A DNA stretch of 64,000 nt from Diphasiastrum complanatum (taxonomy: Eukaryota > Streptophyta > Lycopodiopsida > Lycopodiales > Lycopodiaceae): assembly GCA_029204225.1 (NCBI GenBank), contig CM055095.1, positions 44,109,184-44,173,183 of the forward strand, written 5' to 3'. Positions 3,701 to 62,466 of the stretch are shown here, piece after piece (within the stretch, counting starts at the first letter, position 1; each line of letters opens with the position of its first letter). A model generated the notes under the pieces. It did not search any database. It was not told where the DNA came from and saw only the letters and a program-made list of their open reading frames with translations. Position numbers and translations under genes: made by a program.

Positions 3701-4163
3701 TCCGCTCCTCATATCTGATAATGTCTGAAGAGATATCCATGTAAGGTGACTCCTCATCTGCTGTGAAAACTGATGTGTTCGGTGGAAAATAACAAATGGC
3801 CAAGAAGAGGTCACGGTTCAGTCCCATCAAAGTCCGGTCCACCCGAATCCAAATATAGCGAGCTCACTCATCTGTATGCACCAACTCGACCCAAGGCCGA
3901 ATGAAGTCGCGGACTAAGCAGGCCACCCCACCAGAACCCCGATCTATCAATGCTCTCGTCGACCGCCGATGTGCAGAGTACCAGCCAAAACTCGTAAAAA
4001 CCGGTAGACCTCTTTCCGGACTCTCATGTGTCTCGGTGAATAGGAAGAGATCACCTTCCGCACATAAGTCTCTAAAATCGCCGGCAATAGCTGAAGAGTG
4101 AATGCCATTGCAGTTCCATAGCCTCAACCGCAATGCTCGAGAAGGACCCCCCGAACCGTTACT
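765..4163 (-). pseudogene. LINE ORF2 (endonuclease-reverse transcriptase), broken
   Basis: The ORF encodes the nicking and reverse-transcribing protein of the LINE. It starts with the AP endonuclease (WNCNG at about 4110, TETHESPERG, GDFNART at about 3690, SDHSYLSLSL at about 3345). A linker follows at 3194-2559, then the reverse transcriptase (GQAGFRPGYTTSDH, FVDFRKAFDSVPR, GVKQG, LLYVDDVV at about 2060). The cysteine/histidine C-terminal motif CSMCDLHDIEDEFHFLFRC is near 1240. Breaks include frameshifts near 3290 and 2170, loss of about eight residues after IIQAV, and a deletion joining SRLQI to the C-terminal domain near 1600. The protein cannot be active as it stands. Confidence 0.85.
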
Positions 4164-4187
4164 TAGTTCGAGGGGCCTTAATCCCTA
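4144..4187 (-). promoter_or_regulatory. UAG plus readthrough-like hairpin between ORF1 and ORF2, LINE copy 2
   Basis: ORF1 ends at the UAG at 4187-4185. Seven nucleotides later the stem arm at 4177-4166 pairs with 4156-4144 around the 9-nt loop TAAGTAACG, giving 12 contiguous pairs including two wobbles. The ORF1 frame continues open past the UAG, through the hairpin, into the endonuclease. UAG-GGA and the structured region resemble type III readthrough signals of gammaretroviruses. Confidence 0.6.
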
Positions 4188-11616: not shown

Positions 11617-11996
11617 TGTTAGAAAACCGACTTGCTCATACAAGTAACCCAAGACAAGATTCCTATTGTGATGAAAGAATAGCCAAACACATGAGAGAGA
11701 ACACAAGTGATGAGGAACTCCAACTATGTCCCATTGCAAATGAGGTAGGGTGCACTACATACTTATAAACTTTGGTCTATGCCGAAAAGCAAAAGCAACT
11801 TAAAACCAATTGCGTAATTAATGTCTCTATATATGGTAAAAGCACCAACACCTATCTATAGCAAAACTTGTCTAACTATAGTCTAACTTGACCTTTACTT
11901 AATATAGATAAGGCCCCCTAGAATTAGCATGTAGGCATTACCCAATATTCCTAAATGACAACATTAGGGGTACTAATGTGAACATTAACTCTAACA
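11617..11996 (-). repeat. 3' LTR of a non-autonomous LTR element
   Basis: This 380-bp LTR has TGTTAG/CTAACA termini. On the minus strand a polypurine tract (AAGGGGGAG, plus coordinates about 11997-12005) immediately precedes it. Its sense-3' end is repeated at 19284-19369 next to a primer site, so the two are the LTRs of one minus-strand element. Confidence 0.8.
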
Positions 11997-14750: not shown

Positions 14751-15175
14751 TTAAGAAAAAAGATGGGTCTATGCGTATGTGCATAGGCTATAGGGCTTTA
14801 AATAAACTCACTGTTAAAGATAAGTATCCTTTGCCCCGGATAGATGAGATCTTTGATCAACTCAAAGGGGCAAAGTATTTTACTAAGATAGATCTTAGGT
14901 CTGGACATCATCAGGTACGTATTAAAGAACATGACGTTCCGTTAATGGCTTTTCGTTCACGGAATGGTCATTATGAGTTTTTGGTTCTTCCCTTTGGATT
15001 AACCAATGCCCCAGCAACATTTATGAGGTTAATGAACAACGTGTTCAGACATCTCTTGGGCAAGTTTGTAATAATCTACCTTGATGATATCCTGGTCTTT
15101 AGTCGTACTAAAGAAGAGCATTTTGAACACTTGTGTCAAGTGTTCCAGGTCCTGAGAGAGAATTCCTTGTTGTAA
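14744..15175 (+). pseudogene. reverse transcriptase core, chromovirus A
   Basis: RT motifs run from [16 protein letters not shown] through [10 protein letters not shown] and [12 protein letters not shown] to the catalytic YLDDILVFS near 15075. The metal-binding DD pair is intact. A frameshift near 15150 separates it from the thumb and RNase H. Confidence 0.9.
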
Positions 15176-15870
15176 AGGAATCAAAATGTGAATTCTTCAA
15201 GGAAGAGATTCACTATCTCGAACATATTATCTCCGCTGAGGGGATCAGGATGGATCTTGGAAAGGTAGCTGCAATTATGCGATGGCTAGCACCAACTTCG
15301 GTGGAAGAGCTGCAGATCTTCCTCGGATTGGCTGGATTTTACAATGGATTTTACAAGAGGTTTATCCATCAGTATGCCCTCTTGACTGCTCTTTTGACAG
15401 ATCTGCTCAAGGGTAAGGGCAAGTACTTTAGTTGGGGGCCTAAACAACAAGCGAGCTTTGAAGATGTAAAGGCTGCAATTGCAACTGCTCCTGTCTTAAG
15501 TTTAGTGGATCCAAATGAAGCATTCATAGTAGAGACCGATGCCAGTGATCAGGCAGTCGGTGTTGTTCACTTAACACGACCGTCCGGTCGCGTTTGAGAG
15601 TAAGAAACTAGATAAACACCAGTTGCATTATTCCACTTATGAGAAGGAGTTGTTTGCAATAGTCTATGCTCTTAAGAAATGGACGCACTACCTCTATGGA
15701 GCTAAGTTTGAGATCGTGTTTGATCAAGAAAGTATCAAGTGGCTTTCCTCCCAAAGCAACTCGAAAGGAAGAAAAGCTCGTTGGGCCGAACTTCTCCAAG
15801 AGTTTGACTATCAACTAAGGTACAGGAAAGGGCGCTACAATGTAGTAGTTGATGCCCTGAGTCGAATGCC
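15133..15870 (+). pseudogene. RT thumb and RNase H, chromovirus A
   Basis: The thumb segment contains FLGLAGFYNGFYKRFI. RNase H contains ETDASDQAVG (first catalytic Asp), then, after a stop near 15598, HYSTYEKELFAIVYALKKW (catalytic Glu), FDQES (DQES for the usual D-H-x-S) and VVDALSR. At least two frame changes interrupt the region. Confidence 0.85.
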
Positions 15871-17243
15871 CATGGTAAGCGCGCTAAGTTTTATGGCATT
15901 CAGGAGTGAATTCCTGGAATCACTCAGAGGAAAGTGTGTTAGTGATTCTCACTACACACTTGTGTGGCAGGCTATTGAGCAAAGGAATTCCACAGCCACA
16001 CCAGGGCCATCTGAGAATGTTGCGGGGCCATCGGAAGATGTTGCAGTTGCGTCGGGACGGGACGCGCCGCCTGAAGATGTTGCGAAAACATCCAAAGTGG
16101 ATGTGCCATCAGCAAGTGTTGCGGATGCTCGATGGAAGAATTTCTCCATTGAGGACGGGTACCTCCTTTATAAAGGAAGAGTATGTGTACCCAAGGACGG
16201 TGACTTTAGGCGCCAAATTCTTGAGGAAAGTCACAATAGTCCCAGTGCAGGCCATCCCGGGATAAAGAGGACCTATGCTCTTGCAAAGAATAAGTTTTAT
16301 TGGCCTAGTATGCCGAAAGACGTACAGGAGTACGTGCTAAGGTGCACCACATGCCAGGCGTCTCAAGGTAGGCGGGCTCCTCCAACCACTAGAGATACCC
16401 AATGGTAGATGGGAGAGTATCAGCATGGATTTTATAGTGGGGTTACCAAGAACGAGTAAAGCCCATGACTCGATCTGGGTAGTTGTAGACTGTTTGACCA
16501 AGATGGTGCGGTTTGTACCAACCAAGAAAACTGTTACAGCTCCAGAAGTCGCCAGGCTTTTTATAGAAAATATTTATAAGCTATATGGCCTCCCGCCAAT
16601 ATAGTCAGTGATCGAGATCCAAAGTTTACAGGTACCTTTTGGAGGGCGATGTTTAACAAGTTAGAGACTAAGTTGTCTATGAGCTCCACTGATCATCCCG
16701 AAACGGATGGTCAGACAGAAAGGGTCAATCAGGTTCTAGAAGATATGCTACGAGCATGTTAGTAAGAAGCAAATCAATTGGAAAGAGTATCTTCTGCTTT
16801 TGGAGTTTGCTTATAACAGTACTAAACACACCACTACAGGGTATAGTCCATTCATGCTAATGTATGGATTTCAGCCTAGAGCCCCCATGGCCGTAGGGCT
16901 TAGGAAAGAAAAAGTACAGAGTGTTAGAGAGTTTCTTGAGGATATGGAAACCATGATCAAGATAGCTAAAGCTAATGTGAAGCAAGCGCAAGTGCGAGCT
17001 AAACATTATGCGGATAAAACCCGTAGGGAAGTTATCTTCCAAGAAGGTGATCGGGTGTTTCTGAAAGTTCCTGAAGACTCTACCACTCTAAGCACAGGCA
17101 AGTGCCCTAAGTTGTCCCCAAGGTATTGTGGGCCATTCACAATACTCAAGAGAGTTGGAAGTTCTGCTTACAAGCTGCGTTTGCCAGAATCCGCAAAGGT
17201 ACATCCGGTCTTTCATGTCAGTCAACTGAAACGGGTGATGTGA
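15870..17243 (+). pseudogene. integrase, chromovirus A
   Basis: The HHCC zinc domain is visible in H-N-S-P-S-A-G-H-P-G...CTTC at about 16230-16350. The catalytic core has SMDFIVGLP (D), SDRDPKF (D) and [12 protein letters not shown] (E) between about 16420 and 16750, and the C-terminal part ends at [14 protein letters not shown]. All three acidic residues remain, but stops and frameshifts occur near 16405, 16600 and 16760. The segment with tandem DVA-type repeats at about 16000-16110 lies before the zinc domain. Confidence 0.85.
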
Positions 17244-17849: not shown

Positions 17850-19357
17850 GTTTTAGCGTATATGTGTGACCACCATGAGTGCAACATGTCACCCGATTCC
17901 TTGACTTCCTTTGGATCAAAGAACTTTGACTCCCCCTGAATCATATAACGTAGACATGATAACCTTTGCCTTAACCTTAAGAACTTTGCTTGAAGATAGT
18001 GACTCCCTTGGTCTCTCTGAACATCTTCCAAGCTACCACAAAGGATCTCACCAACATTCATATCATGCATCAACACCCACATTAGAAACGTCTACTTCAT
18101 AAGTAGTTGGCTCCACTTGTGTCGATTCCTTGAATTGAATCCACTTCAATTCTCCTGGTACTTTCATAAGTTACCACTTGTAAGGTCTTGACTCCTGAGA
18201 CCTTCTTCCAAGTAAGCTTCCCATGTATGATCCACTTGATTATGCTCGAGATTTCTCTTAAAAATCTCTAACTAACCACAGCCAATAACTTGCATCCTTG
18301 CATGCAAGCCAAATTAGGTTTACATTTGGCCTTTGAAGCCTCCACCACCTTTTGAGGGTCCCTTCTTCTTTGCTGGTTCTTTGTTGTGTACCCTCTACTT
18401 TTGGGTCATCAGGATTTTAGTCTGTATGAACCTTCCTTGCCTTCACAGACTTCAAACCATACACAGTCGCAATTCTGCACATATTTCAGCAAGTTATGTG
18501 AACGCTTGTAGTGTGAACCGACCAGTAGCAGCACAAACACTTCACCAACAGAAATAACAGTGCAGAACTTCGCGAGGCAATCAGACGAAAGACTTGCAAT
18601 ATCTGTAACTGACCAATCTCATGTGCATGCAGATCATGTAGTAGGTATATAGCGTTGGTAGAGAGCAGTAGGCAACCACAATCAGTCAATCATAGACTAT
18701 ATCTGATCATAGGCCGAAGCAGAATGCTACAACATATGTAGCAACAAGCATAACAGCCAACTTAAAGGCAGGCTGATCTGTAACAAGCAATCCTCATCGT
18801 TTTTCAGCAAGCAGTGATCCAACAAAGTCTTCTTCCTGTGACCTTGTGGACATTACCAAGTAGATTCATCAATCCTTGACCACCACTACCAACAATACTA
18901 CAGCAACAAGGGCTCTCCAATAATCTGGTCAGTAGCTCTCTCTCCTTCTCTCTCTCTTAAATTCTACAGATCTATGGGCATTTTTTTCAGCTATCCAACC
19001 TCTTCCAACGATCTGACCTGTCCTCCAGCACCTACAGCAACCTGAAATCTGAGGCAGATTTCATAATCTCCTCCTTGCAGCTCAACTCCCCCGCGTAGTG
19101 TCAGATCTTCTCACAAAGCTGCCACCATTGTGAATGAAGATCGAAAATGAGAGCTGGCTAGGGACACCACCTGCACCTACTTTTCTCCTTGGAGATGACG
19201 TCCAAATCAATCCCTTATGAATTGATTCCGTTCGTTAGAATACCTCCTTGTTCTCTCGAATCTTGAACCATGCTCTGATACCATGTTAGAAAACCGCCTT
19301 GCTCATACAAGTAACCCAAGACAAGATTCCTATTCCTATGAAACAATAGCCACACAC

Positions 19358-19620
19358 ATGAGAGAGAACCCCCCCTAGCCCTCCTCGGAAAGTCTCAGGC
19401 CACCATATGCTCCCCCTGACCATCATCATCAACACCACTAATGCTGGAGCCATCGTCATGATCAAGTGATTCCTCATCCTCCTGACTCCATGAGAGAGAA
19501 CCCCCCTAGCCATCCTCGGAAAGTCTCAGGCCACCATATGCTCCCCCTGACCATCATCATCAACACCACTAATGCTGGAGCCATCGTCATGATCAAGTGA
19601 TTCCTCATCCTCCTGACTCC
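19358..19620. repeat. 132-bp tandem duplication
   Basis: The segment from ATGAGAGAGAACCCC to CCTCCTGACTCC is repeated at 19358-19489 and 19490-19620 with only a few differences. The duplication includes the last bases of the truncated LTR at 19369 and neighbouring unrelated sequence, so it arose after the two were joined. Confidence 0.9.
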
Positions 19621-21264: not shown

Positions 21265-21678
21265 ATGTTCGCGGTTATCTCTGCTACAATATCTGAAGAA
21301 AAATTACGTGACTTCAAAGCTCTTAATGTTCGATTTCAAGGTGTTCTCGACACTCAAGATGCTATGAAGGAAGCACAATCTTTTTTAACTACCACACTGA
21401 GTTTCAATACCGATGGATTGAATAATGCATGGCGCACCAAGAAAGACAATGCCACCCTCATTGTTTGTTTCACATCAAAAGAAGAACGAACCAAAATACT
21501 GAGACTCAAGTCTAAATTAAAGGGCACACAGATTTTTCTGGATGAGGATCTTACTTACATCCAAGCTCAGGAACGCAAGAAGATTTTTCAGAAGGCTAAA
21601 GCATCAGAACATTTTGCTGTTTATCGAGATGGTTAGGTTCGATATTTGGATCGTGGTCCATCCACTTCCAGTGCCTAG
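21265..21678 (+). pseudogene. LINE ORF1 C-terminal half, copy 4
   Basis: Encodes the L1-ORF1p-like part: a KALNVRFQGVLDTQDA motif (RRM-like), AWRTKKDNATLIVCFTS, then LKGTQIFLDEDLTYIQAQER with a basic helix. An in-frame UAG at 21634-21636 replaces a conserved Gln codon (D-G-Q in copy 5). The natural ORF1 stop is the UAG at 21676-21678. Confidence 0.8.
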
Positions 21679-21718
21679 GAAGTTGGGGCTCTCGAGCGTA
21701 GCAGCAGCCCGGGACCCC
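21676..21718 (+). promoter_or_regulatory. UAG plus junction hairpin, LINE copy 4
   Basis: UAG is at 21676-21678, followed by a six-base spacer, stem arm 21685-21697, 9-nt loop GTAGCAGCA and stem arm 21707-21718. The frame stays open from the UAG through the hairpin to the LWNCNG motif that opens the endonuclease. Confidence 0.6.
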
Positions 21719-22600
21719 ATCCTCATCATCCACATCATCTACGTTTTGGTCTATGGAACTGTAACGGGATCCATTCTTCACCAGCTACAGGAGACTTAGC
21801 TGACTTTATATCACAGGGATATCCTTCTTTCCACAGAGACTCATAAGAGTCAATTTCGTGGACTACCGGATTTTCATGATTTCAGATGGTTTTCAACCTT
21901 TCACCCAGAGATTAGATCTGCAGGAGGTAGAGGTTCTGGTGGAGTTGCATGTTTACAGAGACTCATTACAGCCTACCATTTCTCTGGTTCGACAGGATGA
22001 GCTGGCACGCTTTTTGTGGCTTCGACTTCTTGGCCGAAGTATGGGGCTTGATAGGGATTTGTATATAGCAGTTTGCTATTTTCCACCAGAGTCTTCAGTT
22101 TTCTCCGATCATACAGGTTCACCATATGTTGACCTGTCCTCGGATATTCTCCTTTATGTGGAGCATGGTTATATACTTCTGGCTGGGGATTTCAACGCCA
22201 TGCCTTCCTCTAGACAGACAAAGTTTCATACACTTACGGATGACACTTTGAGGATACATGCCATGGACAATACAGATATGGGGATTCACAAGATATTTGA
22301 CGACGATGGTGGCCCGATCTCTGCATATGGTGAGCACTTTCTTTACTGGGAGAGGCCCACGAGCTTGCCATTTTCAATGGCTTATCATGCTAGTCGAGGT
22401 CTGGTGATTATACCTGCCATCCTTATAGCGGGGGACCTAGTGTCATGGATTATTTCATGGGGTCACCATCTCTTATACCTTTTCTATCTAAGTCCTGACT
22501 TTATTGTATCTCCCACTACATTATCAGACCATTCTTTTCTTTCTCTCAATTTGGACTCTATACTAGATCTCTCTTCATCTACTTCCTCTTATATATAATG
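21719..22600 (+). pseudogene. LINE ORF2 endonuclease, copy 4
   Basis: The AP-endonuclease motifs WNCNG, STETH (out of frame), LLAGDFNAMPSSRQTKF and LSDHSFLSLNL are spread over at least three frames. The catalytic D-N and S-D-H motifs remain readable. The domain nicks target DNA in working copies. Confidence 0.8.
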
Positions 22601-28472: not shown

Positions 28473-29262
28473 ATGAATTTAGCCATTCCTACGGGCCTCC
28501 TTCCTATTCCTATTTCCCAAGAATCCACGGCTCCTCCACCTACAATAATCCCATACACTCCCTCCAGATCAACCGAACTATTTTCCTCTTGGGAAGCTGA
28601 CCAAATGAGAGCCGATTTTCAACTTTTGAAGCAAGAACTTTCACGATTGAAAGGAGTAGTGGTCTCCTTACTAAAGGAAAAGAACCTGTTCCAGTCCAAA
28701 GTCACCTCGTTGGAGCAAGTGATCAATACTAAGCAGGTTACAGCCTCAGAAACGACCACCACCATGATACGGGAGCTTGAGAGTAAAATCGAACAGCATA
28801 AAGATTCATGGGCAGTAGTCTTAAAGAAAGGCACCAAGCCTAGCGCCCCCATTTCCTCAGTCATCTCAGCCACCATTTCGAAAGAGCGGTCAAGGGAGTA
28901 AAAAGCCCATAACATCAGGTTTCGTGGGATACCGGACACAAGACGCCATTGCCGAGGCTACGAGATTTCTCGAGACCACTCTAGGACATGTGACTGATGG
29001 GCTAGATTCAGCTTGCAGGACCACTAGAGATGCAGCTACACTGATCATTCGCTTCACATCCCTAGACAGCCGCAGAGAAGCTTTACACTGTAGAGCCCAG
29101 TTACGTGGCACTACCATACATATGGACGACGATCTTACCTATATCAAGGTTGAGGAGAGGCGTAAAGCCTTCCAGGTCGCTCGAGAGACTGGTAGACGAG
29201 TCATATGTCGAGATGGTCAGATACGATTTGTTGCTGGCACCCCTAGCCGTTCCCAAAGCTAG
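28473..29262 (+). pseudogene. LINE ORF1 (L1-ORF1p-like), copy 5
   Basis: Begins with a Pro-rich N-terminus (MNLAIPTGLLPIPISQEST). A long coiled coil follows (FQLLKQELSRLKGVVVSLLK and onward), then a linker, an RRM-like domain (ITFRGIPDT-type near 28910) and a C-terminal domain (CRAQLRGTTIHMDDDLTYIK). No CCHC knuckle is present. In L1-type elements this protein trimerises and coats the RNA. The copy is broken by UAA at 28899-28901 and by a frameshift near 28938. Confidence 0.8.
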
Positions 29263-29302
29263 GAAGTCGGGGGCCCCGGGATTGGGAGCATCCCGGGGCC
29301 CC
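29260..29302 (+). promoter_or_regulatory. UAG plus perfect junction hairpin, LINE copy 5
   Basis: UAG is at 29260-29262. The stem arm GGGGCCCCGGGA (29270-29281) pairs perfectly with TCCCGGGGCCCC (29291-29302) around the loop TTGGGAGCA. In this copy a later one-base shift separates the UAG frame from the endonuclease. Confidence 0.65.
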
Positions 29303-29310
29303 ATCCATAC

Positions 29311-32300: not shown

Positions 32301-32634
32301 CAGATTCCAGGATACACCACGAGAGGAGAGACTATGCCTGTTGTGTCCCCTACATGAGATAGAGTCCGAGGAGCCTTTTATCTTCAGATGCCCCATATAT
32401 TATGAGATTAGAGGGAGATATCACTATTTATTCCGTGACATGCCTACTACACTCAGAGCACTGATGGGATATGAGGACTCTTGTTGTGTCGCACTTATGC
32501 TACAAGAGATGGTCTTGCTACGCCAGGACAGGTACCAATCAACTCACCAACCACATCCTAGCTCTCAGGCTCAGATTACGTCTTTCTTCACCAGGAGATG
32601 GACACGGCCTGACGACGACATACCACCTCACTGA
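29311..32634 (+). pseudogene. LINE ORF2, copy 5
   Basis: Endonuclease pieces at 29330-30100 (NCDGIHSS, METHKNQVRGLP, VACYFPPESSS, LSNHSF where others have LSDHSF). Linker at 30100-30880. RT at 30882-31600 with GQAGFRAHYSTIDH, FVDFIKAFDSVPR, GVKRGCPLSPVLF and ILLYADDVVLVSRT. The C-terminal domain ends with RLCLLCPLHEIESEEPF...RGRYHYLF. A UGA at 31165-31167 replaces an Arg codon, and residues between K-C and the SRLQ helix are deleted near 31755. The YADD box is intact. Confidence 0.85.
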
Positions 32635-32970
32635 TGTCAGAGACAATGTATCACTCATAGTCATGCAGCAATTCACACTTCTCATCTTATTACGAGAGCG
32701 CACAGTTTTCACCCTCCTAGACGACATCAGCGACGGCCCATACCTCCTGATACAGCTCGTATTATGTCTTTTTTCAACAACAGCACTATCTAACACTATC
32801 TGATACTACTCTACTCCTGGCAGCTATTCTTGCTCCCACTTATGGACAGTTGGCAGTTTGTAGTTTACAGTTATATTACTCATTTCTCTTTTATGCATAA
32901 CTTTTCTTGGAGACGTTTATATACACTCCCATGGTTTTCACATACTTGACATGTACTCCTTTTGGTCTTA

Positions 32971-32985
32971 TATGCCTTTTGGCAT
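32971..32985 (+). promoter_or_regulatory. LINE 3'-terminal stem-loop, copy 5
   Basis: ATGCC-TTTT-GGCAT within TATGCCTTTTGGCATGG, followed by AAAAGACATTAATAAAG and the tail. The same hairpin occurs in copies 4, 8 and 14, and in copy 11 with one G-U pair. Confidence 0.6.
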
Positions 32986-33004
32986 GGAAAAGACATTAAT
33001 AAAG

Positions 33005-33029
33005 CTTTCTTTCTTTCTTTCTTTCTCTC
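33005..33029 (+). repeat. (CTTT)n/CT tail of LINE copy 5
   Basis: CTTTCTTTCTTT...CTCTCA directly after AATAAAG. It is a variant of the CT tail. Confidence 0.9.
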
Positions 33030-33286: not shown

Positions 33287-35960
33287 CAAGTGATAATCTG
33301 AAATATAGCCTCAACAATCAGTGGTGGTGAGGCAAACTCTGCCAGTATGATATCATGGGGAACTGACTGCTTCACACGAATCATCCGGCTAAGCATAAGG
33401 ATCTGCAAACGTGAAATATCACTCCAAGTATCTCTGGACAAGCCAGGACACCATGTCTATGCTGAACATAGAGCAACCGGAGAGACAGTGGTAGAAAAAA
33501 GGCGACAGCGCGTATCAGGATCATGCACATAGTAGATAGAGGAAAACCTCTCCATCTGGACAAGAGCAGAGTGCCCCTTGCGGAGCCTAGACAGTGCAGC
33601 TGGTCTAAAAGTGAGCAATGGACCAGGAAAAAGGACACCCAAGTATGTATAAGAGGCTACTATCTCCAGTGGCAGCTCATCATAGTAGACCCGTCATAGT
33701 AGAACACTGTGTCTCTCATATGCTGTCAATTGATCATTGGTGTTGAACACCATGACCTTAGTCTTACCAATGTTCACCATCAAACCCCATGTCTGGCAAA
33801 AAGTATATAAAGCATCAAGGTGTTGCTGACGCCCAGATGCTGATCTCGATAGAAGTATCACGTCATCCGCATACAGTAGAATAGGGGTAATCATATCTGC
33901 TAACGAACAGCCATCTCCACCCTCTTCCCTAATAACCAGCTCAAGATCATCAATATATAGAGCAAGGAGAGTAGGGGACAAAGGACACCCCTGCTTAACT
34001 CCCACTGTACTATGAATGTAAGAGGACCATCCATCACCATCTCGAAAGTGAGCCAGCACTCTCTCATACAATGTGAAGATAGCAGCAATGATCTCCTGAG
34101 AAAAACCAAGCGATGCTAGGCGCTGGAGTAAAAGGTGTCTCGGAACAGAATCAAAGGCTTTGCGGAAATCCACAAAGCAACAACAAACCCTCTGCTTCTT
34201 GAACTTAGTCTCCTCAATAATGCATCTCAGGATGAATATCTGGTCAGCCGTGGAGTAGCCAGCGCGAAAACCTGCCTGTCCCATAGCATGTAACCCCTTG
34301 TCTCTGCCCGTGAGCTGACAATAGACTGCAAAACGGATCCATATAGCTTGGCCATAGTATGACTGATCATAATAGTGCGGTAGGTGTCTACAATCAAAGG
34401 ATCCCCGACTTTGAGGATAGGGTGTAAAAGGTTGGTGCACCACGATGTGGGGAGACCGAAGATGACAGATTGGTTAAAGATATGGGAAATGTATGTGGCA
34501 ATAATGTGAGCAACTGGTTTTAGGAAGTCCATACTTAGGAGGTCAATATCAGTGGCTTTTTGGGTTTGACCATTTTGGATGGCGTTTTCAACCATGGACG
34601 GGGTGAAGAGGGTGAATTCTGAAGGGCGTGGGGAAAGAGAAATGGAAAGAGAGTCAACTGTATAAAGCTTAGTAGCATAATTTATCCATGACTCAATAGC
34701 AATAGGAGTGGGTTTATAAGGGTTTTTAGGGAACATCCGCCAAAAGAAATTGGAGGATGGGGAGGCAATAGCATCAACAAGTTTTTGTCCCAAGGACTGG
34801 ACATAAGCTGTCTTTTTTTTCAGAGTCACTTTGTGATATTCTTTTTGTTTCAAGGCTAGGGTGTGAGGAGAGTGGTATCTAGCGTAAACAACTTGTTTAT
34901 GCAGTGAGAAGCACTTTGTATCATACCATTTGTTGTGGGTGTGTTTATGCGAAGAGAAGGTTTTCAAAGGATAGGCAATATTGGCAGATTGCAAAAGAGA
35001 TTGAGATAAAAAGACATCTTGTTGGTCAACTGAGGAGGTGAAGGGAAAGTCACGGAGAAAAGTAATTAGGGACTCGATGTAAAGGGGAAAACCAGATGGA
35101 GAGAAAACCGGGCGATGGTGATGAATGGGACGGTGTGTTGTGAATGTGGTACTATGATGTCCAAGGGATAGAAGTAGGAGGGAGTGATCAGAAATGGTAG
35201 GAGGTATAATGTGGAAGGTACGAAGAAATGGGATCAAAGCCTGTGACCCAATGAAGTAGTCAACAACACTATGTCCTCCTCCATGTGGGTGACAGGGAAA
35301 AAAAGATGATGAAGGCCAGCAAAGCAAAATGGTTAAGGATGGGCCTCTGCTAAACCGATCAGCTGCTTTCCAAAGTGGGTAGCTGGAGTATCTGCATCCT
35401 GTGAGGTCCTGTCAAAGCCCATATCTAATGTGTGAACCTGTAGAAAGTCACTCTTTGCATGAAACGCAGCCTGCTTGATGCTCGTTCGAGCATTAAAATC
35501 CCTTGCTAAAAGAATAAGGCCTCGCTGTGCAAAGTTGACTATATCATCTGAGAGAGCCTAGAAAGGGTCACTACCAAAATCTGCAAAAGATGATGTCTGT
35601 GGTGCAAAGTAACAAACTGCAAGAAAGAGGTCATGAGAAAGCCCCAAACAGTGACCAAAGAACTGAAACCAAATAAAACGTGCAAATGGATCACTTTTGA
35701 CCAGTTTAAAATGAGAACTGAAAACATCCTTGGTGAGACATGCAACACCACCAGAACCACGGGAGGTCTTCCCTCTCACGAAGGGCCGATGCGCTGAGTG
35801 CCAGGTGCAGTCTTGTATGGATGGGAGCGGTCTATATAATGATTCATGAGTCTCTGCTAACTAAAGGATATAACATTTCAGCATGAAAGAATGGAAATCG
35901 CATGCTGAAGAAGATGATAGTATGCCATTTTAACTCCAAAAACCAATATGCAAAGGCTTA
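33287..35960 (-). pseudogene. LINE ORF2, endonuclease to RT, copy 6 (inverted part)
   Basis: Endonuclease at about 35950-35180 (motifs in several frames, S-D-H-S-L-L-L-L-S-L intact), linker at 35170-34440. RT at 34440-33694 contains GQAGFRAGYSTADQ, CFVDFRKAFDSVPR, GVKQGCPLSPTL and the intact active site in ILLYADDVILLSRS. A post-RT domain ends at SRMIRVKQSVPHDIILAEF. The frame is interrupted near 34300 and 33690. Confidence 0.85.
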
Positions 35961-36003
35961 GGGATCTCGGGCTATTCCTTTGCCTGGGAGCCCCGAATCC
36001 CTA
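35961..36003 (-). promoter_or_regulatory. UAG plus junction hairpin, LINE copy 6
   Basis: UAG is at 36003-36001. The stem arms are 35994-35982 and 35972-35961, with the 9-nt loop AAAGGAATA and about nine of twelve positions paired. Downstream the endonuclease is one base out of phase with the UAG frame. Confidence 0.5.

Positions 36004-38068: not shown

Positions 38069-38149
<81 letters not shown>
38069..38149 (+). repeat. (CT)n tail of LINE copy 6
   Basis: An 81-bp CT run. A LINE 5' leader (copy 7) starts immediately after it. Confidence 0.95.
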
Positions 38150-38152: not shown

Positions 38153-39458
38153 TGGGCGCCAGCGGATCTCCATGGCCTAGCGATGGCTGTCCTCCATCAC
38201 GCTTCCTCCATCGCACCTGCTCCATCTGATGGCGGATCTGCTGTCCATCACATTTCTGCATTTTTGCACCTGTCCTCCATCGCTGATCTGCTGGCTCTAT
38301 CGTTGTCTTCCATCGCACCTGTTGTCCCTCATCGCTGATCTGCTGGATTCCTCATAATGCCACGTCGCAAAGGAGTCCTTGCCACCACTTTTGAGCCATC
38401 CTTCGTTTCCAACAATGCTTCAACATCTCCCTTACAGCCAGATCCACCTACCCGTCCTCCTCCTATGCCTGTTGCGGTTCCTATCTCTCCATCAAACCCT
38501 ATTCTTGACAATAATGAAACTACTGTAGCTATTCCCTTGACTCCAAACACTCCAGAAGCACCTGTTTCTTTCCCTCCATATGCATTGGTCAAACTTCGTC
38601 GGGATGATCAACTCCGTCTATTTGAATACCTCAATAATCACATAGAGCAACTGGCTTCTCATGATTCCCTGCTTTTAGTGGCGCAATCGCATCTTCAGAA
38701 GTTGGATACTTCCATTCAAGAACTCAAGAACGAAGTTGCAGTTATAAAAAGTGAAGCTTCTTCCCAAATTGCTACTTCGGCAAAAATCCATCAGCTTGAA
38801 AATCAAGTGGAACGACTCCATACGGCTGTCCAGTCATGGGCAGATGTGCTTAAAGGTTCGTCTCCAATTATCTCTCCACCTCCGCCTTCACCTTCGCTTA
38901 TCTCAGCCACGTTCACTGAGAGCTGTCTGCGAAAGCATAAAGCTCTCAATGTTCGTGTTAGAGGTATTCCGAACTCTCAAAATGTTGTTGTAGAAGCTGA
39001 GAAGTTTTTGGAAGGACATCTTCAACACCATAAAAAGGAATGGAAACTGCCTGGCGACCTAAGAAGGACCTGGATACTTGTCATCCGCTTCACATCAATG
39101 TCTCACCGGCGTGGAGTTCTAGGGAAGAGATTCAAATTGCAAGAAACCAAAATCTACTTGGACGAAGATCTTACCTTCATCCAAGTTCAAGAACGTAAGA
39201 AGGCAAGACAAGAAGCTCTATCAACTGGCAAACGGCTTATCTATCGTGATGGTATTATCATATAGTTAATGATAATTCTGAGATAGAATCAGAGATAGAG
39301 AAATGAAGAGATGTCCAGTTGAACATGTAAATGGTCTACGTATCATATAATCCTGGCTATAGGACTCTCTTCCTAGTTAGTTTGTTTGTTTTTTCTACTT
39401 TGACGACACGGATCCGTCTTGTGTCCACAACTTAGTTGATGTACTTGTTCGTCTTATA
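38150..39458 (+). mobile_element. LINE copy 7, ORF1-only element
   Basis: A 5' leader (38150-38356) with repeated CCATCGCACCTG/GCTGATCTGCTGG motifs, one intact ORF1, then about 190 bp of 3' UTR ending ...GATGTACTTGTTCGTCTTATA. There it is replaced by LINE copy 8. No endonuclease or RT sequence and no junction hairpin is present. It resembles mammalian HAL1 half-LINEs in layout. Confidence 0.7.
38357..39265 (+). CDS. Intact LINE ORF1 protein (302 aa)
   Basis: The only complete, uninterrupted ORF1 in the window. It has a basic start (MPRRKGVLATTFEPSF), a Pro-rich segment to about residue 75 and a coiled coil at about 85-165 (QLRLFEYLNNHIEQLASHDS onward). An RRM-like domain at about 195-255 contains HKALNVRVRGIPNSQNVVVE and RTWILVIRFTSMSHRRGVLG. 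A C-terminal domain contains KLQETKIYLDEDLTFIQVQE. It ends IYRDGIII-UAG and is followed by UUA, not by the hairpin found in ORF2-bearing copies. By analogy with L1 ORF1p it would be an RNA-binding, nucleic-acid-chaperone trimer. Intactness suggests a fairly recent copy or selection. Confidence 0.75.
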   Translation: MPRRKGVLATTFEPSFVSNNASTSPLQPDPPTRPPPMPVAVPISPSNPILDNNETTVAIPLTPNTPEAPVSFPPYALVKLRRDDQLRLFEYLNNHIEQLASHDSLLLVAQSHLQKLDTSIQELKNEVAVIKSEASSQIATSAKIHQLENQVERLHTAVQSWADVLKGSSPIISPPPPSPSLISATFTESCLRKHKALNVRVRGIPNSQNVVVEAEKFLEGHLQHHKKEWKLPGDLRRTWILVIRFTSMSHRRGVLGKRFKLQETKIYLDEDLTFIQVQERKKARQEALSTGKRLIYRDGIII

Positions 39459-39975
39459 CGCACTTATGCTACGGGAGATGGTCTTGTTGCGCCAGGATAT
39501 GTACCAGATAGCTCACCAACCACATCCTAGCTCTCAGGCTCAGATTACGTCTTTCTTCACCAGGAGACGAACACTGTCTGATGACGATGACGAAGACATA
39601 CTACCTCACCGATGTCAGAGACAGTGTATCACTCATAGTCATGCAGCAGTTCGCACTTCACGCCATGTTACGAGAACACACAGTTTTCACCCTCCTAGAC
39701 GACGTCAGTGACGGCCCATGTTACCTCCTGTTGCAGCTCATATCACATCCTTTTTCAGCAGCAGCACTACATGATATTACTCTACTCCTGGCAGCTATTT
39801 TGCTCCCCCCTTATGGATAGTTGGCAGTTTGTAATTTCCAGTTATATGCTCATTTCTCTTTTATGTATAGTTTTTTCTTGCAAACGTTTATATACACTCC
39901 CTTGGTTTTCACATACTCGACATGTACTCCATTTGGTCTTATATGCCTTTTGGCATGGAAAAGACATTAATAAAG

Positions 39976-39981
<6 letters not shown>
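39459..39981 (+). mobile_element. LINE copy 8, 5'-truncated 3' end
   Basis: Starts within the last part of ORF2 (M-L-R-E-M-V-L-L-R-Q-D) and contains the 3' UTR, the ATGCC-TTTT-GGCAT stem-loop at about 39941-39956, then ACATTAATAAAG. It is fused directly to the 3' UTR of copy 7. Confidence 0.85.

Positions 39982-40052
<71 letters not shown>
39982..40052 (+). repeat. (CT)n tail of LINE copy 8
   Basis: A 71-bp CT run followed at once by a host-gene retrocopy. Confidence 0.95.
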
Positions 40053-40932: not shown

Positions 40933-41700
40933 ATGGAACCAGCTACACCTCCCTCTGCTCTCCCTCCTAATCCTTCTACTCCTCCTCCATTTGTGCTATC
41001 TAAGGTCTCACCTCCAACTATCCCTCGCTCTATTCTACCGGAAGACGTTCATTATCATGTTGGGCAGTTGTATGCACTATTTTCAGAAGTACAAGGAGAA
41101 AATGCAGCACTCAAATTGGAGGTTCAAAAATTGCGGGATGAGATCAGCCAGCTGCGAACTCTATTACCATCATCTACTACGGATCTTGCAGAAACTTCTA
41201 ACAAGATTTCCAGCCTTGAGAAACAAGTAGAAGAGACGAAATCTTGGGCAGCACTGTTTAAAAAAGATAATGGTATAATAGATTTGCCTACCAATATTTC
41301 AATTGACTTAAGATTAGAAAGCATGTTTTCGAAGCAAGAGAAAAGATCCAAAAAAACCCTTAATATTAGAGTGAGAGGCATCCCAAATGCTGGAAAACCG
41401 CTTGAGGAAGCCAAGGATTTACTTTGCAATAAACTCTCACACTCAACTGAGGGATTTGAAACTGCTTGGAGAGGCAAGTATGATGAGAATGTTCTATTTA
41501 TTAAATTCCGGTCTCTTGTACATCGTAATGTTGCCTTGAAACTTCGAGCCAAGCTGAAAGCGACTTTTATTTTTATGGACAATGATTCAACTCATACGCA
41601 ATGGCTAGCAAGGAAAAAAATCATACAAGAAGCTAAGGAAAAAGGGCAATGGGTGGTGTTTATTGACGGCACACGACGATACTATGAGCGCTCACTATAG
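40933..41700 (+). CDS. Intact LINE ORF1 protein with in-frame UAG before ORF2
   Basis: An open frame from MEPATPPSALPPNPST (an in-frame AUG also exists at 40888) to the UAG at 41698-41700. It has a Pro-rich head, then a coiled coil (FSEVQGENAALKLEVQKLRD and SNKISSLEKQVEETKSWAAL). The RRM-like domain contains KTLNIRVRGIPNAGKPLEEA and ENVLFIKFRSLVHRNV. The C-terminal domain contains KLRAKLKATFIFMDNDSTH and a basic helix. The chain ends RRYYERSL-UAG. The reading frame then stays open across the hairpin into ORF2. Confidence 0.8.
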   Translation: MEPATPPSALPPNPSTPPPFVLSKVSPPTIPRSILPEDVHYHVGQLYALFSEVQGENAALKLEVQKLRDEISQLRTLLPSSTTDLAETSNKISSLEKQVEETKSWAALFKKDNGIIDLPTNISIDLRLESMFSKQEKRSKKTLNIRVRGIPNAGKPLEEAKDLLCNKLSHSTEGFETAWRGKYDENVLFIKFRSLVHRNVALKLRAKLKATFIFMDNDSTHTQWLARKKIIQEAKEKGQWVVFIDGTRRYYERSL

Positions 41701-41741
41701 GGACTTGGGGCTCCCGGGCATGGGAGCAGCCCGAGATCCCC
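41698..41741 (+). promoter_or_regulatory. UAG plus junction hairpin, LINE copy 9
   Basis: UAG is at 41698-41700, followed by spacer GGACTT, stem arm 41707-41719, loop ATGGGAGCA and stem arm 41729-41741, with 11 of 13 positions paired. An AUG in the same frame follows at 41743, so readthrough and re-initiation would give the same ORF2 frame. The linker peptide contains G-A-P-G-x-G-S, shared with copies 1, 5 and 10 in similar form. Confidence 0.65.
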
Positions 41742-41742
41742 T

Positions 41743-42590
41743 ATGTCGCTTCGTAATGGCTTTTGGAATTGTAATGGCTTCCACTCTTCCTCTACTGCAG
41801 TTGACTTGCAGTCCTATCTTGCTCGTACAGATATTTTACTGCTAGCAGAGACTCATGAATCTCAAATTCGTCCTCTTCCTATGATGACAAATTTCTCTTG
41901 GCACTCAGTTTTTAGACCATTCCTACAAGGGAAGACCTCCAGAGGCTCACGTGGGGTGGCATGCTTATACAGAGACCAGTATAGTCATACTTTTAAGTTG
42001 GTTAAGAAAGATCCGTACGCATGTTTTATATGGTTACAGTTAGTTGGGCATTCCCTAGGCTTGGCTAGAGATATCTTCCTGGCAGTATGTTATATTGCTC
42101 CTCAAAGTTCGACATTTGTAGACTATGGTGGGGACCCTTTTCAGGTTTTGTCATAGGATATTTCTATCTTTTCTCCCCAGGGATATGTACCTTTGGCAGG
42201 TGACTTTAACGCACGGACGGCCACCAAACAGACGGAATTTTATGCGATGACAGATTATCTCCAGCTTCATGCTTTGGATACAAGTCTTGAGCGGACATCT
42301 CATGATGAGGCTACCCCTTCTACTACATTGCGAAGGACGTCGACTCTCTTAACACGGACTTCCTCAAACCTGTCCCCCAGCTTCTCTCTTCTTACATTGC
42401 CCACACTTTTAACTTGGCTGTTACCTCGGGCTTCCCCACCAACTGGTGCATGAACCTTCTCCATCCCATTCTCAAGGCTGGTGATCCAATGAACGTGGAT
42501 AACTATCGCACTCTCATGATCAGTCACACGATGGCGAAGTTTTATGGCTCAGTTCTGTAGTCTATGCTTGGATCCCAGGCGGAATCAGAT
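41743..42590 (+). pseudogene. LINE ORF2 endonuclease and RT start, copy 9
   Basis: Starts MSLRNGFWNCNGFHSSS, then LLAETHESQIRPLP, RGSRGVACLYRD and FLAVCYIAPQSSTF. UAG at 42154-42156 interrupts it. GDFNARTATKQTEF follows, then a deletion to LLSSYIAHTFNLAVTSGFP and MAKFYGSVL, and another UAG where other copies have CAG. Confidence 0.8.
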
Positions 42591-53942: not shown

Positions 53943-54006
<64 letters not shown>

Positions 54007-54010
54007 AAGA
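53943..54010 (-). repeat. (CT)n tail of LINE copy 15
   Basis: CTTTCTTTC followed by about 57 bp of CT dinucleotides on the sense strand. Confidence 0.95.
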
Positions 54011-56551: not shown

Positions 56552-56568
56552 CCGCGATGCTCTAGAAA

Positions 56569-56611
56569 GAGCCCCCGAACCGCTACCTAGTCCGAAGGGC
56601 CATGCTCCCTA
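56569..56611 (-). promoter_or_regulatory. UAG plus junction hairpin, LINE copy 15
   Basis: UAG is at 56611-56609 (followed by GGA). The stem arms are 56601-56590 and 56580-56569, loop TAGGTAGCG, with mostly paired positions including several G-U. The frame is open from the UAG into RLRLWNCNG. Confidence 0.6.
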
Positions 56612-58342: not shown

Positions 58343-60097
58343 TTAAGCCTGATAACGCTGCTGGACCTGCTGCAAATGGGAACTGGCCTGGAGAATAAGC
58401 TCGCGAGCACCTGATAGAAATGAAGACAGTGTCACAGGTGTATCCTCGGGAGGAAGAGGAATACACGGTAAAAGAGGTGCATAACCATGAGATAATAAAA
58501 ATGGTGCAACGCCGGTGCTGGTACTAACAGAGCTGTTATAGCTATACTCTGCCAAACATAAGTGCTGATCCCAATCCGTCCCTGAAGGAGTAACAAAATG
58601 GCGCAAATAATCCTCAAGGATCCTGTTAAGGACCTCAGACTGCCCATCAGAAGTAGAATGATAAGCAGACCCCATAAAAAGCTGTACATCCAATATACGC
58701 ATAAGCTCTGTCCAGAGCAATAATGTAAACTTACTATCCCGATCAGAAAGGATAGTACGAGGAAACCCATGTAGGCGAAATATCTTTGAAAGGAACAAGC
58801 GTGCACACTGCTCTGCTGTGATAGTACCGCGGACGGGTATGAAATGTGCCTGTTTCGAGAACCTGTCAACTACCACCATACATGAATCGTGACCACGACG
58901 GGTGCAGGGAAGGCCAATGATGAAGTCCATAGAAACATCAGTCCACTGGCGGTGAGGAATAGGCCAACTCTGAAGCAAACCAACGGACTTAGCACGGGAG
59001 TACTTATTACGTAAGCAGAAAGGACAGGTACGAATAAGTACAACAAGCTCTTTCCCTAGGGATGGCCAATAGAAATGATCCTTAGGACGAGCATAAGACA
59101 TCTGAAAACCAAAATGACCCCCAACTGGGGACGAATGAGCATCCGACAACAACTTAGAACGGATACCCAAAGAACTAGGAATACAAAGGGAACCATAATG
59201 ATAAAGACAGTGGTCAACAATGGAATAAGCCTGATGAGGTGAAGACGACATAGGTGGAGCAGAACTATAAACATCACGAAAATCAGAACATGTAAGATAA
59301 GCAGATGGAAGATCATCAAACCAAGAAGGGATCGTGGCAACAAGGGTATTCAATAAAGCAGGAAGTCTAGACAATGCGTCAGCAGCAGTGTTAGCACGAC
59401 CAGGACGATACAAAATAGAAAAATCAAAAGATTGTAAAAACTGCAACCAACGAAACTGACGATCACTAAGATCACGCTGGGAGAAGAGATAATGTAAGGA
59501 CTGATGATCAGTAACGATATCAAAAGGAACACGGTACAGGTAATGGCGCCACTTCTTAAGAGCATAGATAATGGCAAGAAGCTCTTTCTCATGGACAGAA
59601 TAACGTTGCTCATAAGAGCGTAAACGACGCGACTCATAAGCAATAATACACTGAGACTGACGAAGCAAGGCACCCAAACCAACATTACTAGCATCGGTCT
59701 CAACAATATATTTTTGATCAAACTGTGGTAAACACAGGACAGAGGCCTCCACAACAGCACGACGAAGAGTGTCAAAGGCGAACTGACAATCAGAAGTCCA
59801 AACAAAAGCACTAGACTTCTTCAAAAGGGCATGAAGAGGGGCAGCCACAGTGGCAAAGTGAGGAACAGGACGACGAAGGTGAGTAGCGAGACCAAGAAAC
59901 ATACGAACATGGTGGACATCTGTGGGAACAGGCCAATCAGCGATTGCCCGAACCTTATGAGGGTCCAAACGAATACGACCATCACAAATGAGAAATCCTA
60001 AAAACTCAATCTCAACAACAGCAAAGGAACACTTAGAAAGTTTAGCAAACAACTGGTGATGAACAAGCAATTGAAAAACAGATGAAAGATGTAACAC
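58343..60097 (-). CDS. RT thumb, RNase H and integrase, chromovirus D (584 aa open)
   Basis: RT connection ([17 protein letters not shown]), RNase H ([55 protein letters not shown]), then integrase. The zinc domain is [10 protein letters not shown]...C-P-F-C. The catalytic D, D and E occur in [21 protein letters not shown] and [12 protein letters not shown]. All catalytic residues for RNase H and integrase are present. It lies downstream of a damaged RT core. Confidence 0.85.
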
Positions 60098-60801
60098 ATG
60101 CTCATCAAGAGTCTTACTAAAAACAAGAATATCATCAAAAGACGCATGATGTTATTCATCACATTCTGGAACGTAGGTGGACCATTAGTAACACCAAAAG
60201 GAAGAACACGAAACTCATACAAACCAAGATGGGTACGAAACGCAGTCTTGTGTTCGTCCGAAGGATGCATCCTAATCTGGTGATAGCCGGAACGTAAGTC
60301 TATCTTAGAAAGAAGATGAGAGGTGCCTAACTAGTCAAAGAGATCATCCATGTGAGGAATAGGATACTAGTTACGGATGGTCAACTTATTGAGGGCACGA
60401 TAATCAATGCAGAGGCGTTTGGAACCATCTTTCTTACTGACAAGGAGAACAGGGGCACCAAAAGGACTGTGACTAGGAACAATAAGGCCCTGATCTAGTA
60501 AAGCAGTAATCTGAAGCTCAACCTCATCACGCTCAGACTTAGACATACGGTAAGGAGGCCGGGAGGGAGGAGCAGAACCAGGACGCAAATCAATATGGTG
60601 GTTCACATCACGTAATGGTGGTAGCGTCGTAGGTTCTGAAAAGACAAATGCATACTGATGTAATAAGTCAGAGATCACCTGAGGAACAGCTGCTGGAGGA
60701 GAGGTAGTCACTGGAGAATCTGCTGCAGCACGCTGAACACATAGTAAAGTTGCACAATGAGCCTTAGGTAGGCTGCGGATAAACTGCTTCCCGCTGATCA
60801 G
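60098..60801 (-). pseudogene. RT core, chromovirus D, stops and deletion
   Basis: Continues in frame after the UAG at 60804-60802: [20 protein letters not shown], then a UAG where chromovirus C has the Q of R-N-Q-Y, a second UAG in [15 protein letters not shown] motif, and [21 protein letters not shown] deletion just before the active site leaves FDDILVF in another frame, so RT is lost. Confidence 0.85.
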
Positions 60802-62466
60802 CTAGAAATCTGCCTGAGAATCAATACCAGCAAGTGAGTGGGTCACTGCATCATGAACAAATGTCAATGTCTGCTGAGCCAGGTCCAAAGTAACCGCTCC
60901 CAATGAAGCAAACCAATCAGCACCAAGGATAAGGTCATAGCGCTCCAGAGGAATGATATAAAGATCTGCCTGTCCAGAAAAATCACCAATGCGGTAGGAT
61001 AATCCCTGAAACATCTGAGAACTAGGAAATGAGTGAGAACTGGCAACCTCGACTGTGAGAGGCTGTGGAGCAGGAATAGGTGAAGCGCGTATCCGGCTGA
61101 GGACATAACTGCTGATAAAGGAATGAGTGTTGCCGGTATCAACTAAAGCAATATACTCACGACCAGTAATGCGCACACGTAGCCGAATGGAGCGAGGACC
61201 GGGGCACCCTGTCCAGGTAGCATAAGCAAGCTGAGCATGGCAAGTAGCAGGAAGTAAATCAGTAGAAGGCTCAGGAGATAGATCAGGCTCATCAGATATA
61301 TGAATGTAGATATCGGACTCATCTGGGGTAGTGCCCTCATGGTAGAAAACAGCAGTAGAAGTAGGCAGGGGCTGGCGGCAATCACGGGCAATGTGGTCAG
61401 GACTCTTACAACAAAAGCAAAGACGCTTCTGCTGAATGTCAGCGAAATCTGCAGACGTGTAGACAAAAGCAGGACGAGGAGGCGAAGGCCGAGGAGCGGG
61501 AGAAGTAAGAGAAGAGGTCGGGACGACAGTGGATGGGGCAGATGGGGCCGGAGATGGTAGAGGTGAAAGAGATGGACGGGGTCGGGAAAAGCGAAAGGGA
61601 GCAGGATCAGGGTACTTATGCTGTAAAGTACTAGCAAGGGACATGGCCTCAACAAGTGTGGGTGGACGGAAAGAAGAGACATCGTATCGTAGAGCACCAC
61701 GAAGTCCAACAATGTAGCGAGAAATAAGCTCGGTGGGCTGAAGATCTGTAAAGAGGTAGGAAAGGTCCATAAACTGATCTGTATAGGAAGAAAGATCACC
61801 AGTCTGAGTAAGACTACGGAATATATCACGCTGGCGGCTCAGCCACTGAGGGTCAATCATAGCATGACGAAGATCACGACGAAAGGTAGGCCATAACTGG
61901 AGACCGTCCTGATCAGGGTCAAGTCGGTAGACCCGCCACCAAGTGGCAGCACGTCCATCTAAATGTAAGGCGGCTAACTGGATCTTCTGAGGATCAGTCT
62001 TAGGGTAAATCTGAAAATAAGTATCAAGCTTTGCAAACCAATTCTCTAACAAGTTCCCGTCAGAGGAACCAGAATAGGTGGCAAGCTGTACCCGATCACA
62101 AAAATCTCGAGCAAAATGTGGCTCAGGAGCTAGATGTCGTGGAAAATGTGACTCAGGAGCTGTAGGACGTGGAAAACCGGGTGGTGGGTTAGGTGGAAAA
62201 TGAGGCCCACCGCCAAAGGAAGTAGACGAGCATGGAAGTCCAAATGGAGACCCAAATGATGAATGAACAGGGGCTTTGCCAGGTCCATGTGGCTGTAAGG
62301 AATCAATCTGTGACTGCATAGTGGCAAAGCCGGTCTGTAGAGTGGTAAAACCGGTCATCATTTGGTCGAAACGACTACTGAGGAGAGTAAGAGAGTCACG
62401 CATATCAGCAAACTGTTCATCTAAAGGTCCGGAATGACTCGCAGGTGTAGTGGGTGAGCTAGCCAT
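60802..62466 (-). CDS. Intact gag-protease, chromovirus D (554 aa)
   Basis: Starts MASSPTTPASHSGPLDEQF. A coiled-coil segment with MQSQIDSLQPHGPGKAP, then the Ty3-type capsid region (NWFAKLDTYFQIYP, AATWWRVY, FMDLSYLFTDLQPTELISRY). The zinc knuckle C-F-C-C-K-S-P-D-H-I-A-R-D-C fits C-x2-C-x4-H-x4-C. An aspartic protease has VDTGNTHSFIS and LILGADWFASLG. It ends S-Q-A-D-F-UAG, with pol following in the same frame. Structural protein and protease appear able to function. Confidence 0.9.
   Translation of the reverse strand: MASSPTTPASHSGPLDEQFADMRDSLTLLSSRFDQMMTGFTTLQTGFATMQSQIDSLQPHGPGKAPVHSSFGSPFGLPCSSTSFGGGPHFPPNPPPGFPRPTAPESHFPRHLAPEPHFARDFCDRVQLATYSGSSDGNLLENWFAKLDTYFQIYPKTDPQKIQLAALHLDGRAATWWRVYRLDPDQDGLQLWPTFRRDLRHAMIDPQWLSRQRDIFRSLTQTGDLSSYTDQFMDLSYLFTDLQPTELISRYIVGLRGALRYDVSSFRPPTLVEAMSLASTLQHKYPDPAPFRFSRPRPSLSPLPSPAPSAPSTVVPTSSLTSPAPRPSPPRPAFVYTSADFADIQQKRLCFCCKSPDHIARDCRQPLPTSTAVFYHEGTTPDESDIYIHISDEPDLSPEPSTDLLPATCHAQLAYATWTGCPGPRSIRLRVRITGREYIALVDTGNTHSFISSYVLSRIRASPIPAPQPLTVEVASSHSFPSSQMFQGLSYRIGDFSGQADLYIIPLERYDLILGADWFASLGAVTLDLAQQTLTFVHDAVTHSLAGIDSQADF

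Follow-up and report, generated by a model that had tools for sequence, protein, structure and literature searches.

Elements of the two-ORF LINE type have to obtain a small amount of ORF2 protein from the same RNA that gives ORF1, and how they do so is a long-standing question, for which reviews, in the portions available, offer reinitiation, stop-start coupling and 2A-like peptides. Reinitiation is given there for SART1 and L1 and 2A-like peptides for the LINEs of trypanosomes (PMC5972666, PMC5009743). In SART1 an RNA structure is described downstream of the stop-start site at which reinitiation takes place, and the ORF2 of mammalian L1 is described as starting at an AUG of its own behind a 63-nt spacer (both from the available part of PMC5972666). 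Outside the LINEs, retroviruses and plant viruses are known to solve a related problem by reading through a UAG stop codon. The gammaretroviral gag-pol junction, as in murine leukaemia virus, is a UAG whose readthrough is stimulated by RNA structure (PMC5009743, in part), and the type III readthrough signals of the carmo- and tombusviruses consist of UAG, a following G and a 3' RNA structure, which a figure legend in the accessible portion of the source names as a compact pseudoknot (PMC5382211). Among open-licence PMC papers, judged by titles, the beginnings of abstracts and parts of PMC5009743, PMC5972666 and PMC9252281, no LINE that uses stop-codon readthrough was listed.

The element described here belongs to Diphasiastrum complanatum, a clubmoss of the class Lycopodiopsida, so that an earlier note on this DNA was right to call it a plant LINE. 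Several copies lie in the 64-kb window, meaning the whole stretch of DNA that was analysed. Their ORF1-ORF2 linkers, together with those of copies elsewhere in the genome, fall into ten families, labelled A to J in this analysis, with G and I represented by single copies. Common to all ten is a layout in which ORF1 ends in UAG and is followed, after about 6 nt, by a 12-13-bp stem with a loop of usually 9 nt and then by the endonuclease. The relevant features of the window are as follows.

40933..41697, plus strand: ORF1 of copy 9, 255 aa from the first Met, with a coiled coil and RRM-like fold as modelled for its homologue P0034
41698..41700, plus strand: UAG stop of the copy 9 ORF1, followed by GGA
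41707..41719, plus strand: 5' arm of the copy 9 hairpin, 6 nt past the UAG
41720..41728, plus strand: loop of the copy 9 hairpin, 9 nt
41729..41741, plus strand: 3' arm of the copy 9 hairpin
41743..41745, plus strand: in-frame AUG directly behind the stem of copy 9, found only in family A among the copies examined
41764..42156, plus strand: start of ORF2 in copy 9 (endonuclease, WNCNG) in the frame of the UAG, a stop ending the frame early
4144..4187, minus strand: junction of copy 2, with UAG GGA, stem and 9-nt loop, open into the endonuclease
21676..21719, plus strand: junction of copy 4, the only copy of family G, with UAG GAA and stem, the linker being 78 nt and in frame
29260..29303, plus strand: junction of copy 5 (family H), with UAG GAA and a perfect 12-bp stem, an indel shifting the frame
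35960..36003, minus strand: junction of copy 6 (family B), with UAG GGA and stem, an indel shifting the frame
56568..56611, minus strand: junction of copy 15 (family D), with UAG GGA and stem, in frame, with no Met in the 199 codons after the UAG

The earlier note had reported six such junctions, and all six are present, those at 4144-4187, 35961-36003 and 56569-56611 lying on the minus strand. As it had described, the UAG is followed by GGA in four of them and by GAA in two, and in all six a stem of 12-13 bp, with 0-3 mismatches, begins 6-7 nt past the stop. Its statement that the loop is exactly 9 nt stands for these six junctions but not for the genome, where the loop is shorter in families F and J and, in three copies of H, has an extra codon. 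The frame of the UAG is open as far as the WNCNG motif in four of the six window copies (4187-, 21676+, 41698+ and 56611-), again in agreement with the note, and is shifted by an indel in the remaining two (29260+ and 36003-). These two shifts are read as decay because most of the related copies in the genome are in frame: the family B copies elsewhere mostly are, as are 16/19 of the family H relatives of copy 5. Six sites in the window combine UAGG[GA]A with a spacer of 6-7 nt, a stem and a 9-nt loop, compared with a mean of 0.83 over 60 dinucleotide shuffles, of which none gave more than 3, a stem being counted when at least 10/13 positions were paired and the loop was 9 nt. Two more decayed junctions lie at about 42970 on the plus strand, without a UAG, and at about 526 on the minus strand, truncated in a CT repeat.

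The window also holds other repetitive DNA. Domains of Ty3-type LTR retrotransposons (gag, protease, RNase H and integrase) are found at 58346-62466 (minus strand) and 13830-16405 (plus strand), and near-perfect tandem duplications at 19357-19620 and 9077-9269, with periods of 131 (98% match) and 99 (100%). Tracts of (CT)n/(AG)n adjoin LINE copies at 534-614, 38070-38149, 39978-40052 and 53944-54010, and also at loci L056, L099, L104 and L115 elsewhere; in several copies they sit at the 5' truncation point of the element, as if insertion or truncation favoured or created them. An ORF1 copy at 38357-39265 (plus strand) is followed closely by LINE 3'-end sequence at 39459-40000, which matches 32490-33029, and is probably part of an internally deleted copy.

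For the nature of the element, copy L027 was examined. Its ORF1 is 98% identical to the annotated D. complanatum protein O6H91_02G138100, and a profile search of its ORF2 finds Exo_endo_phos (4.4e-14) and RVT_1 (1.6e-33), with the APE-like endonuclease at the N-terminus; the best PDB matches of this ORF2 are R2 and human L1 ORF2p. The element is termed an L1-like LINE, a class taken from domain content and structural matches. For ORF1, the AlphaFold2 model of P0034, a homologue of the copy 9 protein, predicts a long helix at 54-138 (coiled coil), a β-α-β-β-α-β arrangement resembling an RRM fold and a C-terminal helix, with a mean pLDDT of 61. The top structural match of this model is human L1 ORF1p at an E-value of 0.0024, none of the matches falling below 0.001. 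At the sequence level, Pfam gives ORF1 nothing above the curated cut-off, with weak coiled-coil matches only, and no L1 ORF1p is present among the best 60 of 93 PDB sequence matches.

The D. complanatum genome (1.74 Gb in 5,176 contigs) was the source of further junctions. The searches scored 142-150 of 7,075-11,683 candidates each, and since only this subset was scored, with selection partly for long open frames, the fractions given below describe the better-preserved copies and not the genome. In all, 97 junctions (96 genome loci and copy 9) were anchored by the similarity of a 44-nt block, without use of the frame. Ten were left out: L026, L046, L063, L072 and L097, in which the UAG is out of frame; L069, which has lost its hairpin and, judged by eye, is out of frame; L067, L092 and window 42970, which have no UAG block; and L061, in frame but degraded. 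The remaining 87 reduce to 77 distinct junctions, and in 72/77 the stop and the endonuclease share one frame, the in-frame share being 73/87 when the dropped rows are included. Twenty extra loci carry no evidence on the frame because the script had picked their stop in frame, which is why 72/77 is quoted and not 92/97. With these 20 loci included, the linker is open in 89/92 in-frame rows. A further batch from family H, in which one of 20 loci had no junction, gives 16/19 in frame, 15 of those 16 also being open.

The distance from the UAG to the W of WNCNG is 63 nt in family J, 66 nt in A, B, C, F and I, 69 nt in D, E and H, and 78 nt in the one G copy, with the rarer values of 72 nt in three H copies and 57 nt in the distant copy L138, whose linker can nonetheless form a stem (MFE -19.2, a single value without a control). 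The lengths 57, 63, 66, 69, 72 and 78 nt differ by multiples of three despite repeated loss or gain of codons in the loop or tail, and linkers of 64, 65, 67, 68, 70 and 74 nt belong to out-of-frame copies. The earlier note had named intact copies with ORF2 in another frame as the finding that would speak against readthrough, and none occurs among the seven copies, from part of the genome, whose ORF2 frame is at least 1000 aa and whose junction was read: the UAG is in frame in L027, L079, L080, L119, L120 and L121, and L099 ends just upstream of the linker.

The stop codon itself is almost invariant. At the stop site of the 77 junctions there are 72 UAG, 3 UAA, 1 AGG and 1 UAT, with neither UGA nor CAG at any of the 77. 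The codon after the UAG (n = 72) is GGA in 61, GAA in 9 and GGG in 2, and the base before it is A in 64/72. In the H batch, which is no evidence of stop identity because UAG was part of its search pattern, the following codon is GAA in 11 of the 19, GGA in 5, AAA in 2 and AGA in 1, so that the base after the UAG is G in 16/19 and A in 3/19. Restriction to UAG argues against a role that any terminator could fill, since UAA and UGA should otherwise mark some of the families. It also agrees with the type III pattern of UAG followed by G or by a purine-rich octanucleotide, as 72/77 junctions have a UAG and the next base is G.

A UAG followed by G fits the plant 3' splice site as well, for which CAG is an equally good acceptor. 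It might thus be supposed that ORF2 is translated from a spliced RNA, and pyrimidines do make up 9-14 of the 20 nt before UAG|G in 10 representatives. This explanation is nevertheless highly improbable: the equally suitable CAG never stands at the stop site in the 77 junctions whereas UAA does in 3/77, the stem and the shared frame would be left unexplained, and ORF1 would be lost from the RNA that is to be copied.

An in-frame AUG between the stop and the endonuclease is present in 15/18 in-frame copies of family A (21 A copies in all), compared with 0/74 in-frame copies outside family A and 0/16 in-frame copies of the H batch. No AUG overlaps or adjoins the ORF1 stop in the manner of SART1, that of family A being at residue 15. 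The WNCNG motif lies at about residues 21-28 after the UAG, and the first in-frame Met was located in those copies of families A, B, C, D, F and I that stay open for 100 codons or more past the stop, a length that no available copy of family E reached. It was found at residue 15 or 61 in family A (10 such copies out of 16), 40 in B (9 out of 16), 97 in C (3 out of 3), 119 in F (2 out of 5), 74 in I (1 out of 1) and at 120-219, or not at all, in D (16 out of 25). As the first Met falls inside or beyond the endonuclease, any AUG start in families B, C, D, F and I would deprive ORF2 of its N-terminal motif.

These counts bear directly on reinitiation, in which ribosomes would terminate at the UAG, be held by the downstream hairpin and start again at an AUG just behind it, as has been proposed for SART1 and L1. 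Family A, with its AUG behind the stem in 15/18 in-frame copies, would suit such a route, as would the structure reported downstream of the SART1 stop-start site in the available part of PMC5972666, and two relatives from outside the genome, P0040 and P0041, begin MAAWNCNG. For the element as a whole, reinitiation at an AUG is decidedly unlikely, with none in frame ahead of the endonuclease outside family A (0/74, and 0/16 in H), and with families B, C, D, F and I either lacking a Met or having the first one at residues 40-219, that of the intact young copies being at residue 97. Family A (window 41743-41745; L002, L003, L031 and others), with its AUG behind the stem, might combine readthrough and reinitiation.

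The outside relatives deserve a brief comment. The nearest outside proteins are 39-41% identical and start after WNCNG as predicted (P0001-P0003), and P0040 and P0041 are 62-64% identical to P0002. The idea that the nearest outside relatives likewise have no start codon, which had been drawn from P0001-P0003, was dropped because of the MAAWNCNG beginnings of P0040 and P0041. A search of viral contigs with P0002 found no relative.

The layout is kept in copies that moved very recently. L027, L119 and L120, on contigs C5, C16 and C19, share 99.3-99.7% identity across some 1.2 kb, and each consists of an ORF1 of 300-302 aa, UAG GAA and an ORF2 of 1182-1183 aa with its first Met at residue 97. A fourth copy, L122, which is 99.1-99.8% identical to these three, has an ORF1 of 306 aa and an open ORF2 frame of 595 aa, with no Met in the 118 codons read. 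Two more copies have the 1182-aa ORF2 without an intact ORF1, namely L121, in which ORF1 is changed and the UAG is in frame, and L099, which is cut upstream of the linker. Since these near-identical young copies keep the layout, the arrangement ORF1-UAG-ORF2 is carried by recent retrotransposition. It could be argued that the layout is a relic, an accident preserved in dead copies in which the stop has no role, many of the listed copies being broken by stops. This is scarcely credible, however, because young copies that are 99% alike keep the layout, because it is common to families that differ at many linker positions and because no young mobile copy was read in which the UAG had turned to sense or the frame was lost.

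An alternative genetic code with UAG as a sense codon was also considered and rejected. The ORF2 of L027 ends in UAG and has no other UAG within its 1183-aa frame, so UAG is not a sense codon in this copy, and many ORF1 matches are free of stops inside.

The hairpin is well supported, more so by its stability among synonymous sequences than by covariation. When each representative was compared with 1,000 recodings, the MFE was below synonymous-codon expectation (p<0.05) in 12/15 and in a further 5/5, that is 17/20, which are not independent tests because the representatives are related. The exceptions are C1 (p 0.24), D (0.25) and G (0.066), so that the stems of the youngest mobile family, C1, and of D are no better than synonymous codons would give. 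Across 106 junctions, 82% of the pair cells are formed compared with 15-68% when slid, and in 19-20 representatives a standard pair occupies 85-86% of pair cells compared with 57-69% after a slide of one column. No match to the hairpin was found in Rfam.

That the two arms covary had been put forward from the window copies, and this claim is borne out in part, so that the covariation is best called suggestive. In its favour, 9/13 stem pairs are changed on both sides in the 19-20 representatives, and cells changed on both sides are more numerous than in any of 500 shuffles, which take no account of relatedness. Family B provides an example, having a C-G pair (CUC/CCG) in some copies and U-A (CUU/CCA) in others, with both changes synonymous; L023, also of family B, has C-A at this position. 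On a tree, by contrast, double changes on the same branch are few, their numbers against a null of random re-pairing being 3 vs 0.4 (p 0.009; 3 vs 0.8, p 0.064, on a flank-only tree) for the internal branches of 95 taxa and 2 vs 0.38 (p 0.057) and 4 vs 0.54 (p 0.024) for those of 106 taxa, and the values for all branches of the 106 taxa are 5 vs 1.15 (p 0.012) and 8 vs 1.48 (0 of 1000). The 106-taxon test left out L099, L108, L123, L125, L129, L130, L132, L133, L137, L138 and L139, and in alignment A4 the row for L134 is off by one base, with one extra gap cell. An R-scape-like null with 77 junctions gave no single significant pair, and changes preserve pairing in a proportion (0.52) no better than under random re-pairing (0.51).

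The loop sequence GGGAGC is kept in several families (for example at window 41720-41728) and is complementary to GCUCCC of the family A 5' arm, making two alternative stems possible. A pseudoknot between this loop and the 5' arm was judged by hand to be sterically unlikely.

As protein, the linker behaves quite differently from the endonuclease that follows it. A codon-substitution test had been suggested for it, and the outcome is negative: the linker is open and in phase but has no excess of third-position changes within the hairpin, where the changes on internal branches are distributed 27/18/26 over codon positions 1/2/3 (23 synonymous, 48 not). In the same test the start of the endonuclease gives 13/4/49 (47 synonymous, 19 not). 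The young copy L027 and copy L030 differ in the linker by 6 synonymous and 3 non-synonymous changes. The amino acids of the linker are not visibly protected. This is compatible with a readthrough linker, and it is also the best argument from sequence that still speaks for a downstream start.

Such initiation could take place, internally or by reinitiation, at a non-AUG codon (CUG, UUG or AUU) close to where the hairpin ends, the stem positioning the ribosome. A stem immediately ahead of such a start would speak for this, and the hairpin linker that lacks amino-acid constraint fits with it. It is still an unlikely source of ORF2, as inspection finds no near-cognate codon common to all families (AUU occurs in A, B and J, whereas C and D have UUG) and as the phase of the linker with the UAG, and the GGA or GAA that nearly always follows, would have no explanation.

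Readthrough of the UAG to give an ORF1-ORF2 fusion is the best explanation of the junctions, and a distinctly probable one, because ORF1 and ORF2 share a frame with only a UAG and a hairpin between them and because, outside family A, the in-frame copies examined have no in-frame AUG ahead of the endonuclease. For most ribosomes translation would end at the UAG of ORF1 and yield ORF1p, which binds RNA. The others, a minority, would insert an amino acid at the UAG and continue through the linker into ORF2, and the product would be a fusion of ORF1 and ORF2 that carries endonuclease and reverse transcriptase and is expected to be the active enzyme. The ratio of the two outcomes, and hence the efficiency of readthrough, may be set by the weak context of the stop (as a rule an A precedes the UAG, and G and a purine follow) and by the hairpin 6-7 nt downstream, as in the type III viral signals. 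A stimulating role of the hairpin is likely, if less certain than readthrough itself.

It also seems fairly likely that the whole LINE lineage no longer initiates ORF2 separately, its endonuclease and reverse transcriptase being produced exclusively by readthrough, fused to ORF1p, much as Gag-Pol is made. If so, the relatives that begin MAAWNCNG would represent an older state with reinitiation, and family A, which has both, would be intermediate. Readthrough would further mean that non-LTR elements have converged on the Gag-Pol solution, and the tethering of ORF1p to ORF2p could explain cis preference. The approximately ten sequence families would, moreover, constitute a natural set of readthrough signals from a plant, suited to simple reporter assays.

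The clubmoss LINE can be compared with four known systems. Like mammalian L1, it has an ORF1 with a predicted coiled coil and RRM-like fold and an ORF2 with endonuclease and reverse transcriptase, but outside family A it has no AUG corresponding to the one described for L1 after the 63-nt spacer. Like SART1, it is a two-ORF LINE whose ORF1 stop is followed by an RNA structure (PMC5972666, in the part available), but unlike SART1, for which UAAUG is described, it has no in-frame AUG near the stop outside family A. The carmo- and tombusvirus type III signals, as far as the accessible portion of PMC5382211 describes them, share with it the UAG, the G and the 3' structure, and do so in plants, whereas the spacer of the clubmoss LINE is not purine-rich over eight bases. 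Unlike murine leukaemia virus, the clubmoss LINE has no LTRs, its hairpin is a plain stem-loop in which no pseudoknot was seen by hand, and its readthrough is predicted. Its organisation is that described for the viral gag-pol junction, with two genes in one frame, a single UAG between them and an RNA structure.
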